Of a stretch of 64,000 nucleotides of DNA, positions 2,998-17,146 are shown in pieces. Positions within the stretch are counted from its first letter, which is position 1. Each line of letters starts with the position of its first letter. The notes beneath the pieces are model-generated. The model was not told the DNA's origin, ran no database searches, and saw nothing but the letters and a program-made list of their open reading frames with translations. Source of the stretch: Solimonas sp. K1W22B-7 (GTDB taxonomy: Bacteria; Pseudomonadota; Gammaproteobacteria; Nevskiales; Nevskiaceae); assembly GCF_003428335.1 (NCBI RefSeq), contig NZ_CP031704.1:2418001-2482000 (forward strand), written 5' to 3'. The translations under genes and the position numbers were made by a program.

Positions 2998-4353
<1,356 letters not shown>

Positions 4354-12889: not shown

Positions 12890-12910
12890 CTAGTTAACGA
12901 GGACATGCCC

Positions 12911-15019
12911 ATGGCGATCTCCGCCTATCCTGCAGCGCCCGTCACCAAGACGTTCCGCTATGGCAACCACACCGTCAGCCTGCAGACCGGCCACATGGCC
13001 CGCCAGGCTACCGGCGCCGTCGTCGTCAGCATCGACGACACCGTCGTGCTGGTCACCGTGGTCGCCAAGAAAGAAGCCAAGGCCGAGCAGGATTTCTTCC
13101 CGCTCACGGTCGACTACATGGAGAAGTTCTACGCCGGCGGCCGCATCCCGGGTGGCTTCTTCAAGCGTGAAGGCCGTCCGACCGAGAAGGAAACCCTGAC
13201 CTCGCGCCTGATCGACCGCCCGATCCGCCCGCTGTTCCCGGAGGGCTACTACAACGAAATCCAGCTGATCGCCCAGGTGGTCTCGCTGAACCCGGAAGTC
13301 GACGGTGACATCCCGGCGCTGCTCGGCGCTTCCGCCGCGCTGGCGCTGGCCGGCGTGCCCTTCCAGGGCCCGATCGGCGCCGCCCGCGTCGGTTACAAGA
13401 ACGGCAACTACATCCTCAACCCGAACGTCTCCGAGCTGGTGGATTCCGAGCTCGACCTCGTCGTCGCCGGCACCAGGGACGCCGTGCTGATGGTGGAGTC
13501 CGAGGCCGACATGCTGTCCGAGCAGGTCATGCTCGGCGCCGTGCTGTTCGGTCACGAGCAGATGCAGGCCGCGATCACCGCGATCAACGAATTCGTTGCC
13601 GAAGCCGGCAAGCCGAAGTGGGACTGGAAGGCCGCCGATCGCTCGGCCGTCCAGACCTTCGTCGCGCCCTTCGAGGGCAAGATCGCCGAAGCCTACGGCT
13701 TCACCGACAAGCAGGTCCGCTACGGCAAGCTCGACGAAGTGACCAAGGCCGCCAAGGCCGCGCGTCCGACCGACGGCAGCCTGACCGACAACCAGATCAA
13801 GTACGAACTGGACGAGCTCAAGGCCAAGATCGTGCGCAACCGCATCCTCGATGGCCATCCGCGCATCGACGGCCGCGACAAGGTCACCGTGCGTCCGCTG
13901 TCGATCAACGTCGGTACGCTGCCGCGCACCCACGGTTCGGCCGTGTTCACCCGTGGCGAGACCCAGGCCCTGGCCGTGGTCACCCTGGGTACCGGCAAGG
14001 ACTACCAGATCATGGACGCCATCAGCGGCGAGTGGCATGAGCACTTCATGTTCCACTACAACTTCCCTCCGTACTCGGTGGGCGAGACCGGCCGTCTGAA
14101 CTCCCCCAAGCGCCGCGAGATCGGCCATGGCCGCCTGGCCAAGCGCGGCGTCGCCGCCGTGATGCCGGACCTCGAGAAGGAATTCCCGTACGTGGTGCGC
14201 GTGGTTTCGGAAATCACCGAATCCAACGGTTCCTCGTCGATGGCCTCGGTCTGCGGTTCCAGCCTCGCGCTGATGGACGCTGGCGTGCCGATCAAGGCGC
14301 CGGTTGCCGGCGTGGCGATGGGCCTGATCCTGGAAGAAGGCCGCTGGGCGGTGCTCACCGACATCCTCGGTGACGAAGACCACCTCGGCGACATGGACTT
14401 CAAGGTCGCCGGCACGCAGGACGGCATCACCGCGCTGCAGATGGACATCAAGGTCGCCGGCATCACCGGCGAGATCATGGCGCAGGCCCTCAAGCAGGCG
14501 AAGGACGCCCGCCTGACGATCCTGGCGCAGATGAACGAAGTGCTGCCGAAGGCTCGCACCGAGCTGTCGATGCACGCGCCGCGCATCACCATGATCAAGA
14601 TCCACCCGGACAAGATCCGCGAAGTCATCGGCAAGGGCGGCGCGACCATCCAGGCGATCACCCGCGAGACCGGCACCTCGATCGACATCGACGACGACGG
14701 CACCATCAAGGTGGCCGCGGTCGACGGCAAGGCTGCCGAGGCGGCGATCGCCCGCATCCAGGCCCTGACCCGCGACGTCGAAGTCGGCGCGATCTACGAA
14801 GGCAAGGTCGCCAAGATCATGGACTTCGGTGCATTCGTGACCATCACCCCGGGCAAGGACGGCCTGGTCCACATTTCCCAGCTCGCCGACAAGCGCGTGG
14901 AGAAGGTGGAAGACGTGGTCAAGGAAGGCCAGGTCGTCAAGGTCAAGGTCCTGGAAGTCAGCAAGGACGGCAAGATCCGCTTGTCGATGAAGGCCTTGGA
15001 CCTGGAAACGCCGGCCTGA
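12911..15019 (+). CDS. pnp: Polyribonucleotide nucleotidyltransferase (PNPase)
   Basis: 3'-5' phosphorolytic exoribonuclease of the RNA degradosome. ATG 12911 is preferred over ATG 12905 because GAGG at 12899-12902 is 8 bases from the former and only 2 from the latter. Layout: RNase PH domain 1, alpha-helical linker, RNase PH domain 2 (with the catalytic [12 protein letters not shown] segment), KH domain from about residue 559 ([10 protein letters not shown]), and S1 domain from about 627. At 702 aa it is full length. Confidence 0.98.
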
Positions 15020-15029
15020 GCGGCTTGAT

Positions 15030-15099
15030 TTGTGCGGTGCGATAACCGCACAATTGACTGTAGTGGCAGCTTGTGGCGCATCGAGAGGTGCGCCACAAG
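15030..15099 (+). terminator. Two hairpins after pnp
   Basis: A 9-bp perfect stem TTGTGCGGT/ACCGCACAA (15030-15053) and an 11-bp perfect stem (15070-15080 with 15089-15099) followed by TCTTTCT. The second is the likelier pnp terminator or 3'-stabilising structure; neither has a perfect T run. Confidence 0.5.
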
Positions 15100-15180
15100 T
15101 CTTTCTGGAGAGGGGGAAAAGCGCCTACAACCACTAGAACATGGCGCTAAATATAAAAACTGATGGGCTTACGCGGTCAT

Positions 15181-15308
15181 AAAAAAACCCCCGGGAGTGC
15201 CGGGGGCAAGGTGCGAGAAAGGCGCTAGGCCTTTCTGGAGGAGACCGTTCAGACCCGGCAGCCACCCGTTGCCGGGTTTTTTGTTGCTTGGCTGTTGATC
15301 TATGTTGC
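15181..15308 (-). ncRNA. Candidate PhaR-controlled small RNA
   Basis: A roughly 125-nt transcript predicted on the minus strand. Promoter TTGACA-17-TATACT lies just upstream (15337-15342 and 15314-15319). The RNA would fold into three hairpins: CCCGGCA/TGCCGGG (15254-15276), AGAAAGGC/GCCTTTCT (15216-15236) and the terminator CCCCCGG/CCGGGGG (15188-15206) followed by seven U (15181-15187). A single-stranded CUCCUCC (complement of 15237-15243) adjoins the second hairpin and is complementary to Shine-Dalgarno sequences, a hallmark of mRNA-repressing sRNAs. A GTTGCAGTGCAG motif shared with the phaR leader covers the start site. No coding capacity is apparent. The family is not recognised. Confidence 0.6.
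15254..15282 (+). terminator. Plus-strand terminator of the pnp operon
   Basis: CCCGGCA...TGCCGGG stem followed by TTTTTT. A strong intrinsic terminator for transcription arriving from pnp. The same DNA encodes the first hairpin of the minus-strand sRNA candidate. Confidence 0.8.
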
Positions 15309-15342
15309 AGTGCAGTATAGATATGGTTAGCGTGCTTGTCAA
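15304..15342 (-). promoter_or_regulatory. Sigma-70 promoter with PhaR-like operator
   Basis: On the minus strand: -35 TTGACA (15337-15342), 17-base spacer, -10 TATACT (15314-15319). The motif GTTGCAGTGCAG (15304-15315, plus-strand reading) overlaps the -10 and the expected start at about 15306-15308. This is the classical repressor position. Confidence 0.7.
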
Positions 15343-15406
15343 TAAATTTAACGAAAATTTAATAACAAACTAATCAACCACTTGCAGCGAAAATCGAAGG
15401 GATTTT

Positions 15407-15418
15407 GTTGCAGTGCAG
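15407..15418. promoter_or_regulatory. Second PhaR-like box
   Basis: Exact repeat of GTTGCAGTGCAG, 103 bases from the first copy (nearly ten helical turns), in an AT-rich intergenic stretch. It has no gene start of its own nearby and could assist looping with the first box. Confidence 0.5.
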
Positions 15419-15458
15419 CGTAAGCTTTTTGGCCGGTGGCGATCGCCGCCGGCGGGGC

Positions 15459-15980
15459 TTACTCGGAGGGCGGCAACTCTTCGCCCGTCGTCTCGTCGAT
15501 GCCGGCGCGGCGCTTGATCAGCTTGGCCTTGGTCGACAGGTTCTTGAGGAACTCGCGACGCACCGAGCGCCAGATCGGCACCTGCTTGTCGGCCATTTCC
15601 TTGAGTACGTACAGCGGCTGCTGGGCCTGGCCCAGCATGTTGCGCAGCTGCTCGGTGAACTGCTGCTGCTGGTCCTGGAACAACTGGGCCGACAGCTCCA
15701 GGTAGCGGCTGATGCTGTTCTGCATCGGGTCGCCGTAGTAGCGGATGATCGATTCCAGCAGGTCGTTGGTGAAGATGGGGTTGCCGCCTTCCTCCTGCTC
15801 GGCGATCACCTGCAGCAGGATGCTGCGCGTGATGTCCTCGTGGGAGCGCTTGTCCTCGACCCGGAACTTCGCACCCTGCAGCACCAGCAGCCGGATTTCC
15901 TCCAGCGTGATGTAGCGGCTGATGTGCGTGTCGTAGAGACGACGGTTCGGGTACTTCTTGATGATGCGGATGTCGGACAT
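15459..15980 (-). CDS. phaR: Polyhydroxyalkanoate synthesis regulator PhaR
   Basis: DNA- and granule-binding repressor of phasin and PHA genes. When PHA accumulates, PhaR leaves its operators for the granule surface. The N-terminal PHB/PHA accumulation regulator DNA-binding domain (about residues 3-62) carries the family signature IIKKYPNRRLYDTHISRYIT. A second accumulation domain follows (about 65-110), then a Gln-rich segment. I chose ATG 15980 (173 aa) because the family begins MSDIRIIKKYPNRRLYD; the ATG at 16019 would put the operator-like CTGCACTGC inside the coding sequence. No phaC or phasin gene lies in the window. Transcription runs toward the sRNA candidate. Confidence 0.93.
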   Translation of the reverse strand: MSDIRIIKKYPNRRLYDTHISRYITLEEIRLLVLQGAKFRVEDKRSHEDITRSILLQVIAEQEEGGNPIFTNDLLESIIRYYGDPMQNSISRYLELSAQLFQDQQQQFTEQLRNMLGQAQQPLYVLKEMADKQVPIWRSVRREFLKNLSTKAKLIKRRAGIDETTGEELPPSE

Positions 15981-15999
15981 TAGTCTTCTGGCTGTTTTG

Positions 16000-16008
16000 C
16001 TGCACTGC
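16000..16008. promoter_or_regulatory. PhaR-like box in the phaR leader
   Basis: CTGCACTGC (GCAGTGCAG on the minus strand), about 20 bases upstream of the phaR start codon. Same core as the boxes at 15304 and 15407. Suggests autoregulation, as is known for PhaR in other bacteria. Confidence 0.5.
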
Positions 16009-16037
16009 GTTTGCTGCATAGCATCATGCCAGAACGG

Positions 16038-16985
16038 TCAATGAGTCTCCACCGCAGGGGGTGCAGGCTGCAGCAATTGCCCGGGTCTCCAGTGCTGCAG
16101 GGCCCAGGCCAGCAGTTCCCGCACATCGGCGCCGCGCAGGTCTCGTGGCGGCTCCTGTCGCAGCTGCTGCAGGCAAGACCAGAGGCTGGTGCCGGCAGCC
16201 TCGTCGGCCAGCGGTGCCGCGTGGTTCTGCTTGCTGAGCTTGAGCCCGTCGTCGCCCAGCAACAGCGGGCCATGGCGATAGGCCGGCGGCTCCCAGCCCA
16301 GTTGGCGCATCACTGCGATCTGGCGAAAGGTCGAGCCCAGCAGGTCGGCGCCGCGTGCCACCTCGGTGATGCCCTGCTCATGCTCATCCACCGCGCAGGC
16401 CAGCTGGTAGCCGGTCATGCCGTCGCTGCGGCGCAGCACGAAGTCGCCGACCTCGGTTGCCGGATCGCGCTGCTGCAGTCCCCGCCAGCCATCGACGAAC
16501 CGCAGCATGCCGGTGCCGGCACGGCAGCGCAGGGCCAGCGGCTTGCCCGGTTCCGGCGGGTGAGTGCGGCAGCGGCCGTCGTAGACCGGGCCATCGGGGC
16601 CGGGCAGGGCGCTTTGCTGCAGCTGCGCACGGCTGCAGGAGCAGGGGTAGGTGAGGTCCTGCGCCGCCAACTGTTCCAGGGCCTCGTCGTACTCCGGCTG
16701 GCAGGCCGTCTGGTAGCGCGGGGTTCCGTCCCACTCCAGGCCATGCGCTTCCAGCTGTCGCAGGATCACCGTGTCCATGCCCGCCGGGCAGCGCGGACGG
16801 TCGAGGTCGTCGATCCGCAGCAGCCAGCGCCCGCCCATGCTGCGCGCCTGCAGCCAGCTGGCCGCGGCGGTCAGCAGCGAGCCCAGGTGCAGGGGGCCGC
16901 TGGGCGTGGGCGCAAAACGCCCGATATAGGCCGGGGGCGTAGTTCCATCGGCTGCCGGGGCCCTGTCGTCGGTGGAATGCTGCAT
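16038..16985 (-). CDS. gluQ: Glutamyl-Q tRNA(Asp) synthetase
   Basis: Class I synthetase paralogue that attaches glutamate to queuosine in the anticodon of tRNA-Asp. It keeps the HIGH-type motif PSGPLHLG (residues 28-35), the zinc ligands CSCSR and YDGRC, and a KMSKS-like LKLSKQ near residue 248, but lacks an anticodon-binding domain. At 315 aa this is the family length. It is not beside dksA here, unlike E. coli. A queuosine-pathway gene, queF, lies 7 kb away. Confidence 0.95.
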   Translation of the reverse strand: MQHSTDDRAPAADGTTPPAYIGRFAPTPSGPLHLGSLLTAAASWLQARSMGGRWLLRIDDLDRPRCPAGMDTVILRQLEAHGLEWDGTPRYQTACQPEYDEALEQLAAQDLTYPCSCSRAQLQQSALPGPDGPVYDGRCRTHPPEPGKPLALRCRAGTGMLRFVDGWRGLQQRDPATEVGDFVLRRSDGMTGYQLACAVDEHEQGITEVARGADLLGSTFRQIAVMRQLGWEPPAYRHGPLLLGDDGLKLSKQNHAAPLADEAAGTSLWSCLQQLRQEPPRDLRGADVRELLAWALQHWRPGQLLQPAPPAVETH

Positions 16986-17146
16986 CTGGATATAGGCGGT
17001 CTACAGTAAATATCAGCAGGAATCGCGAACATCAGAAGTGTGATGAAAGTGAGGAGAATCACACAATGTGTTCGAAATCATGCTACAGTAATCCCGTGTC
17101 AACAGTTGCAGGACACCATGGAATCAGAGCCTTGCCAAAGTAGTTG

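Follow-up and report, generated by a model that had tools for sequence, protein, structure and literature searches.

Does the interval between pnp and phaR in Solimonas sp. K1W22B-7 encode a small RNA (sRNA) and, if so, what controls it and which messages might it silence? The question arose from an original prediction of an undescribed minus-strand sRNA under PhaR control, made on the window, i.e. the whole 64,000-nt stretch of DNA analysed here. phaR is located directly upstream of the putative sRNA gene on the same strand, and pnp is convergent (Table 1).

The predicted RNA gene and its conservation

The predicted near-consensus promoter, TTGACA-17-TATACT (15342..15314, minus strand), was found with 11/12 consensus matches and was the sole such site in 14000-17000 (shuffles 0.4, sd 0.7). 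It is followed, as also predicted, by a terminator with U7, which would give an RNA of 127 nt with a fold of -47.5 kcal/mol (z = -2.94). The CUCCUCC segment, claimed to be exposed, was indeed unpaired. Of the two further hairpins proposed, the 8-bp hairpin 1 is conserved, whereas the 5′-most one (about 15279..15251) was found in only part of the relatives. Because its plus strand reads as a terminator-like hairpin and some relatives lack it, the 5′-most hairpin may serve pnp and not the sRNA. The sRNA region matched no Rfam family at the gathering threshold, in agreement with its having been called undescribed, and an open-licence literature search returned nothing relevant on an sRNA in Solimonas, Hydrocarboniphaga or Salinisphaera.

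Table 1. Features of the pnp-phaR interval and its flanking genes (window coordinates).
Feature	Position	Strand	Basis and remarks
pnp, polynucleotide phosphorylase, convergent	12905..15019	(+)	named from sequence; synteny by tblastn
Predicted full transcript, about 127 nt	15181..15307	(-)	limits predicted from the -10 (start) and the U-tract (end)
Conserved double-hairpin core, 65 nt	15181..15245	(-)	covariance model R2, 92.6 bits (the window sequence is part of the R2 seed)
Intrinsic terminator hairpin + U7	15181..15207	(-)	stem 15207..15187; covarying
Unpaired conserved linker CGCACCUU	15208..15215	(-)	alignment and fold
Hairpin 1, 8 bp, covarying	15216..15236	(-)	fold and covariation
Unpaired anti-Shine-Dalgarno segment GUCUCCUCC	15237..15245	(-)	alignment and fold; CUCCUCC itself 15243..15237
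Terminator-like hairpin facing pnp transcription	15251..15279	(+)	12 pairs and T-run; complement is the sRNA 5′ hairpin
Main PhaR-type operator TGCACTGCAACA	15303..15314	(-)	first T is the last T of the -10; covers the expected start
-10 hexamer TATACT, spacer 17	15314..15319	(-)	promoter scan; comparison of copies
-35 hexamer TTGACA	15337..15342	(-)	promoter scan; kept in nearly all copies
Second, possibly auxiliary operator TGCACTGCAACA, exact copy	15406..15417	(-)	103 bp 5′ of the main box; follows the phaR stop
phaR, PHA accumulation regulator	16019..15459	(-)	PF07879 (PHB_acc_N) 1.2e-27, PF05233 (PHB_acc) 1.3e-12

By blastn, the element was present in 58 of 61 genomes of the order Nevskiales/Salinisphaerales (one per species, partly drafts), in 1-3 copies and mostly between pnp and phaR. 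The core pattern matched records of Solimonas, Nevskia, Hydrocarboniphaga, Polycyclovorans and Fontimonas, and also of Sinimarinibacterium, Stagnimonas, Panacagrimonas, Abyssibacter and Salinisphaera. Among 81 distinct copies, 55 were situated between pnp and phaR, 11 had one of these genes in the stretch examined, and 15 had neither. At ten loci, at least two copies stood side by side; the tandem copies at L031, L032, L042 and L043 each had a promoter and an operator. Promoter, CUCCUCC and hairpins were conserved in relatives keeping pnp-phaR, the very comparison that the original prediction had named as able to overturn it.

CUCCUCC was invariant in 71/71 aligned copies, whose exposed consensus segment is RUCUCCUCC. 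In the structure-based R2 alignment, standard pairs occupied 97.8% of the cells. Both hairpins covaried, with two-sided changes in 14/16 pairs and none of 500 shuffles as high. Sliding the partners brought pairing down to 44-65%, a control favourable to the structure, as R2 was derived from members of the tested set; that derivation leaves the two-sided changes unexplained. The free variation in loop lengths speaks against a coding reading. An earlier covariance model, R1 (MAFFT alignment), was dropped because of its poor structure (7 pairs), and R2 was used instead. Beyond the order, R2 gave clear copies in a few families, some linked to phaR (L121, L123) and others not (L115, L117, L118).

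Each of the four genomes from the genus also contains one more copy, which has diverged (L060 at 3344-3413, L072, L073, L076); this copy has a longer terminator hairpin and no PhaR box at the fixed position. L060, which belongs to the Solimonas sp. K1W22B-7 genome itself (G000), lies just 3′ of a MarR-like regulator gene and beside an efflux-adaptor-like gene.

A PhaR-type operator at the sRNA promoter

The motif proposed to sit over the start site was found there as TGCACTGCAACA (15314..15303, minus strand). The recurrence of its core in the phaR leader did not hold: since phaR is on the minus strand, the second box lies 3′ of the gene, following its stop codon and preceding the sRNA promoter. 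A TGCN3GCA box was present at equal distance upstream in three other genomes of the genus.

A PhaR-type box (TGCAYYGCAACA) was fused to the -10 at one fixed position in 64 of the 81 sRNA copies, the background for TGCN3GCA being about 0.17 per 190 nt. In the fused form, TGCN3GCA starts at the final T of the hexamer (TATACT-GCAYYGCAACA). The fused box also occurred in copies without phaR found nearby (L009, L010, L033, L034, L045, L049, L063, L071). The TGC-N3-GCA palindrome agrees with the published consensus: it shares its core with the PhbF consensus known from footprinting, TG[N]TGC[N]3GCAA (PMC3206438), and the box is close to the R. eutropha PhaR site YTKNTGCRNYGCANMAR (PMC12849132). The pattern TATRNTGCRNYGCARCA was found in 54/61 genomes, and its reversed control gave only a handful of matches. 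The box covers about -7 to +5, which is a repressor position.

The phasin promoter is a textbook PhaR target. The sole Phasin_2 gene detected in the same genome (PF09361, 26.5 bits) bears the same operator, its promoter TTGACA-17-TATGAT being fused to GCGTTGCAACA and followed by a second box (G000:C1:1266106-1266122). Moreover, 16/20 further fused-box loci, picked mainly for the TATGAT form, precede ORFs homologous to this phasin (E 1e-19 to 1e-85). The predicted operator architecture is common to the sRNA and the phasin, and this identical geometry backs the PhaR control that had been proposed. We regard the computational case for such control, through a predicted operator, as well supported. 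Many other boxes in this genome lie within open reading frames and are probably due to chance.

Two genomes from a different family (L121, L122) carry the sRNA directly behind a phasin-like gene with a PhaR-boxed promoter. At L121, phaR stands in front of that gene, giving the row phaR - phasin-like - sRNA, and at L123, phaR, a fused box, the sRNA and pnp follow in succession. The phasin-like gene of L121 extends over about 1059-1385 and the sRNA over 1501-1566; as no separate box precedes this sRNA, it may derive from the 3′ UTR of the phasin mRNA.

The PhaR Pfam domain was found in 11/13 genomes tested. G044 and G047 have no phaR and keep the sRNA with no box, which fits PhaR control; that the sRNA is kept there also points to a role of the RNA beyond PhaR. 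In the Salinisphaera-type genomes G055, G056 and G060, PhaR is present but the sRNA has no box. PhaR control is therefore not universal, given the missing operators in these three genomes and at the second copies L060, L072, L073 and L076.

We must also note a spacer element, AGTMAGT(Y), between the -35 and -10 of many sRNA promoters (e.g. L005, L014, L036, L082). The pattern GTVAGTBM matched 15/70 sRNA promoter spacers (shuffled mean 0.2). The element also occurred in copies without a PhaR box, none was seen in phasin promoters, and it suggests a second regulator. At the Salinisphaera-type loci L059, L067, L069 and L075, we observed no PhaR box and a spacer palindrome, ACGAAAGTCGT, with phaR absent in 2/4 genomes; it looks as if the sRNA had there been transferred to another regulator.

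Predicted function and alternative readings

PhaR is known to leave DNA for PHA granules (PMC12849132). We consider it likely that the element is a trans-acting sRNA gene of the PhaR regulon, made with phasin upon PHA storage and silencing mRNAs with GGAGGAG sites. PhaR on the box fused to the -10 would block transcription of the sRNA; when granules form and draw PhaR off the DNA, the sRNA would be made together with phasin. The shared operator geometry is visible in the sequence, whereas the joint de-repression is what PhaR biology would lead one to expect. As sequence, folding and covariation indicate, RUCUCCUCC, a copy of the ribosome's anti-Shine-Dalgarno, would be exposed 5′ of a stable hairpin and the terminator. 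There it could occlude GGAGGAG-type ribosome sites and repress translation of the respective mRNAs. The likely logic would be that a carbon-storing cell turns down the genes for uptake and breakdown of further substrate.

In four genomes from the genus, the sequence GGAGGAGAY-N3-9-ATG occurred 17-30 times each, compared to 3-9 times for the control GGAGGAAAY, an excess for which base composition could account. Ribosome-site target prediction had been suggested as a check; recurrent matches here included lipid-catabolism genes (DUF1329, DUF1302, acyl-CoA dehydrogenase and enoyl-CoA hydratase). Across the order, GGAGGAG was present in 3/29 DUF1329 ribosome sites vs 2/341 other ORFs, and the DUF1329 duplex energies gave p = 0.05 with automatically chosen start codons. 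With 31 copies in G000, DUF1329 is a lead only. It was undetected in five of 37 genomes searched; four of these five belong to genus g17 (Salinisphaera-type). Lipid uptake and beta-oxidation genes are a weak lead as sRNA targets, the statistics being thin, and a brake on substrate intake would make sense with such targets. The pairing proposed for alkB was rejected as weak: the match comprises 7 bases and needs partial opening of hairpin 1, and alkB has no full GGAGGAG complement.

An alternative that differs from this explanation only in the targets is that the sRNA mainly exerts feedback on PHA genes, e.g. on phasin mRNA. Such feedback has been proposed for MmgR of Sinorhizobium meliloti, which lowers phasin protein post-transcriptionally (PMC8401924), and the sRNA encoded directly behind the phasin-like gene at L121 and L122 would suit it. 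The phasin ribosome sites in the examined loci are mostly of CAGGAG or TGGAGT type, however, and in most genomes lack the full GGAGGAG complement, so we regard PHA feedback as the main role as rather unlikely. That the conserved sRNA is genuine but its box belongs to another regulator, or that PhaR activates rather than represses, appears less probable still. PhaR does both in R. eutropha (PMC12849132), and in several copies an extra element in the spacer, of AGTMAGT or ACGAAAGTCGT type, points to other regulators. Nevertheless, the box agrees with the PhaR/PhbF consensus, recurs in identical geometry at the phasin promoter, and occupies a repressor position.

A terminator region or phaR 3′ tail without trans function would be in keeping with an element directly 3′ of phaR on the same strand, whose 5′ hairpin doubles as a pnp-side terminator-like site. 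We consider this very improbable: a near-consensus promoter belongs to the element itself, each of the tandem copies carries promoter and operator, and other copies lie away from phaR. Moreover, termination has no need of an unpaired CUCCUCC that is invariant across families.

If the trans-acting, PhaR-controlled sRNA is correct, PHA storage in hydrocarbon- and lipid-degrading gammaproteobacteria would also act through an RNA whose gene is wired exactly as that of phasin, and a cell accumulating the polymer would probably silence a set of messages as well. PhaR targets can be sought in one line by means of the fused -10/operator signature, and work on PHA yield gains a concrete handle in the sRNA.

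Comparison with known anti-Shine-Dalgarno sRNAs

The closest functional counterpart is MmgR, an anti-Shine-Dalgarno sRNA repressed by PhaR (PMC12542648, PMC8401924); gel shifts have demonstrated binding of PhaR from S. meliloti to the promoter of mmgR (PMC12542648). An sRNA released by PhaR, as originally proposed, is in consequence not new in kind, and this precedent lowers the conceptual novelty of a PhaR-repressed anti-Shine-Dalgarno sRNA. In Caulobacter, the alpha-r8 sRNAs SisA-D silence a large regulon in nutrient-rich cells by an anti-Shine-Dalgarno 10-mer, and alpha-r8 sRNAs have been tied to carbon storage and feast/famine (PMC12559287). The Solimonas sRNA resembles MmgR/alpha-r8 in being short and terminator-ended, with an unpaired anti-Shine-Dalgarno core and multiple copies in some species. 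Its promoter has a PhaR-type operator and may be repressed by PhaR, as that of mmgR is. MmgR/alpha-r8 sRNAs are, however, alphaproteobacterial, and their 10-nt single-stranded core UUUCCUCCCU follows a weak hairpin (PMC12559287); in the Solimonas sRNA, GUCUCCUCC lies 5′ of an extra 8-bp hairpin and the core is RUCUCCUCC, not UUUCCUCCCU. The neighbour of alpha-r8 in most species is an N-formylglutamate amidohydrolase gene, in place of phaR and pnp. As core sequence, architecture and neighbours differ, we did not file the sRNA as alpha-r8. No alpha-r family was among the Rfam matches of the region, although alpha-r8 itself may be without an Rfam model.

If the proposed circuit holds, PhaR-sRNA coupling would be no rhizobial peculiarity. 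We tentatively suggest, as a possibility short of an even chance, that PhaR was coupled independently to anti-Shine-Dalgarno sRNAs in alpha- and gammaproteobacteria, as a general storage circuit that silences part of the proteome. In Nevskiales/Salinisphaerales, the sRNA might have come from the phasin transcription unit (phaR - phasin - sRNA, as at L121) and then been amplified into tandem copies.

In the double-hairpin sRNAs ncS03/05/27/62 of Burkholderia, of which a genome has several homologues, an unpaired CU-rich 5′ segment can pair with ribosome sites. Processing of ncS27 yields a short core, and growth attenuation on overexpression is reported for ncS27 only (PMC5688073). A link to PhaR was not found in the passages of PMC5688073 consulted. 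The closest Rfam family to our sRNA, below threshold, is RF02278 ('Betaproteobacteria toxic small RNA'), with which it shares the layout of CU-rich unpaired 5′ segment, hairpin, linker and terminator hairpin. Hairpin 1 and the linker differ, and the scores, 18 bits for the window and 28 for L121, fall short of the threshold of 50; a search of G000 with the RF02278 model gave no match. L084, which RF02278 matches above its threshold, was found only weakly with R2 (22 bits, E 5.5e-5). RF02837 (anti-hemB) is alike in its short C-rich hairpin and terminator layout but reached only 17.6 bits in the window, on the sRNA strand, and 25.2 bits at L121 (threshold 49.5).

RF02278 matched at E <= 0.001 in 82/274 genomes, with only 2 above the Rfam cut-off. 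We observed a sub-threshold class (L086-L113), with a consensus like NGACUCCUCCAUCCUCCUUUGGUGG plus terminator, in many gammaproteobacterial families and sometimes in tandem. Its promoters are mostly unrelated to PhaR; L095 and L100 have a PhaR-like box about 30 nt upstream. This suggests that, in gammaproteobacteria, double-hairpin anti-Shine-Dalgarno RNAs form a larger class than the RF02278 threshold reveals. We propose to treat the Solimonas element as a new family of double-hairpin sRNAs in gammaproteobacteria, with MmgR-like wiring and predicted PhaR control.
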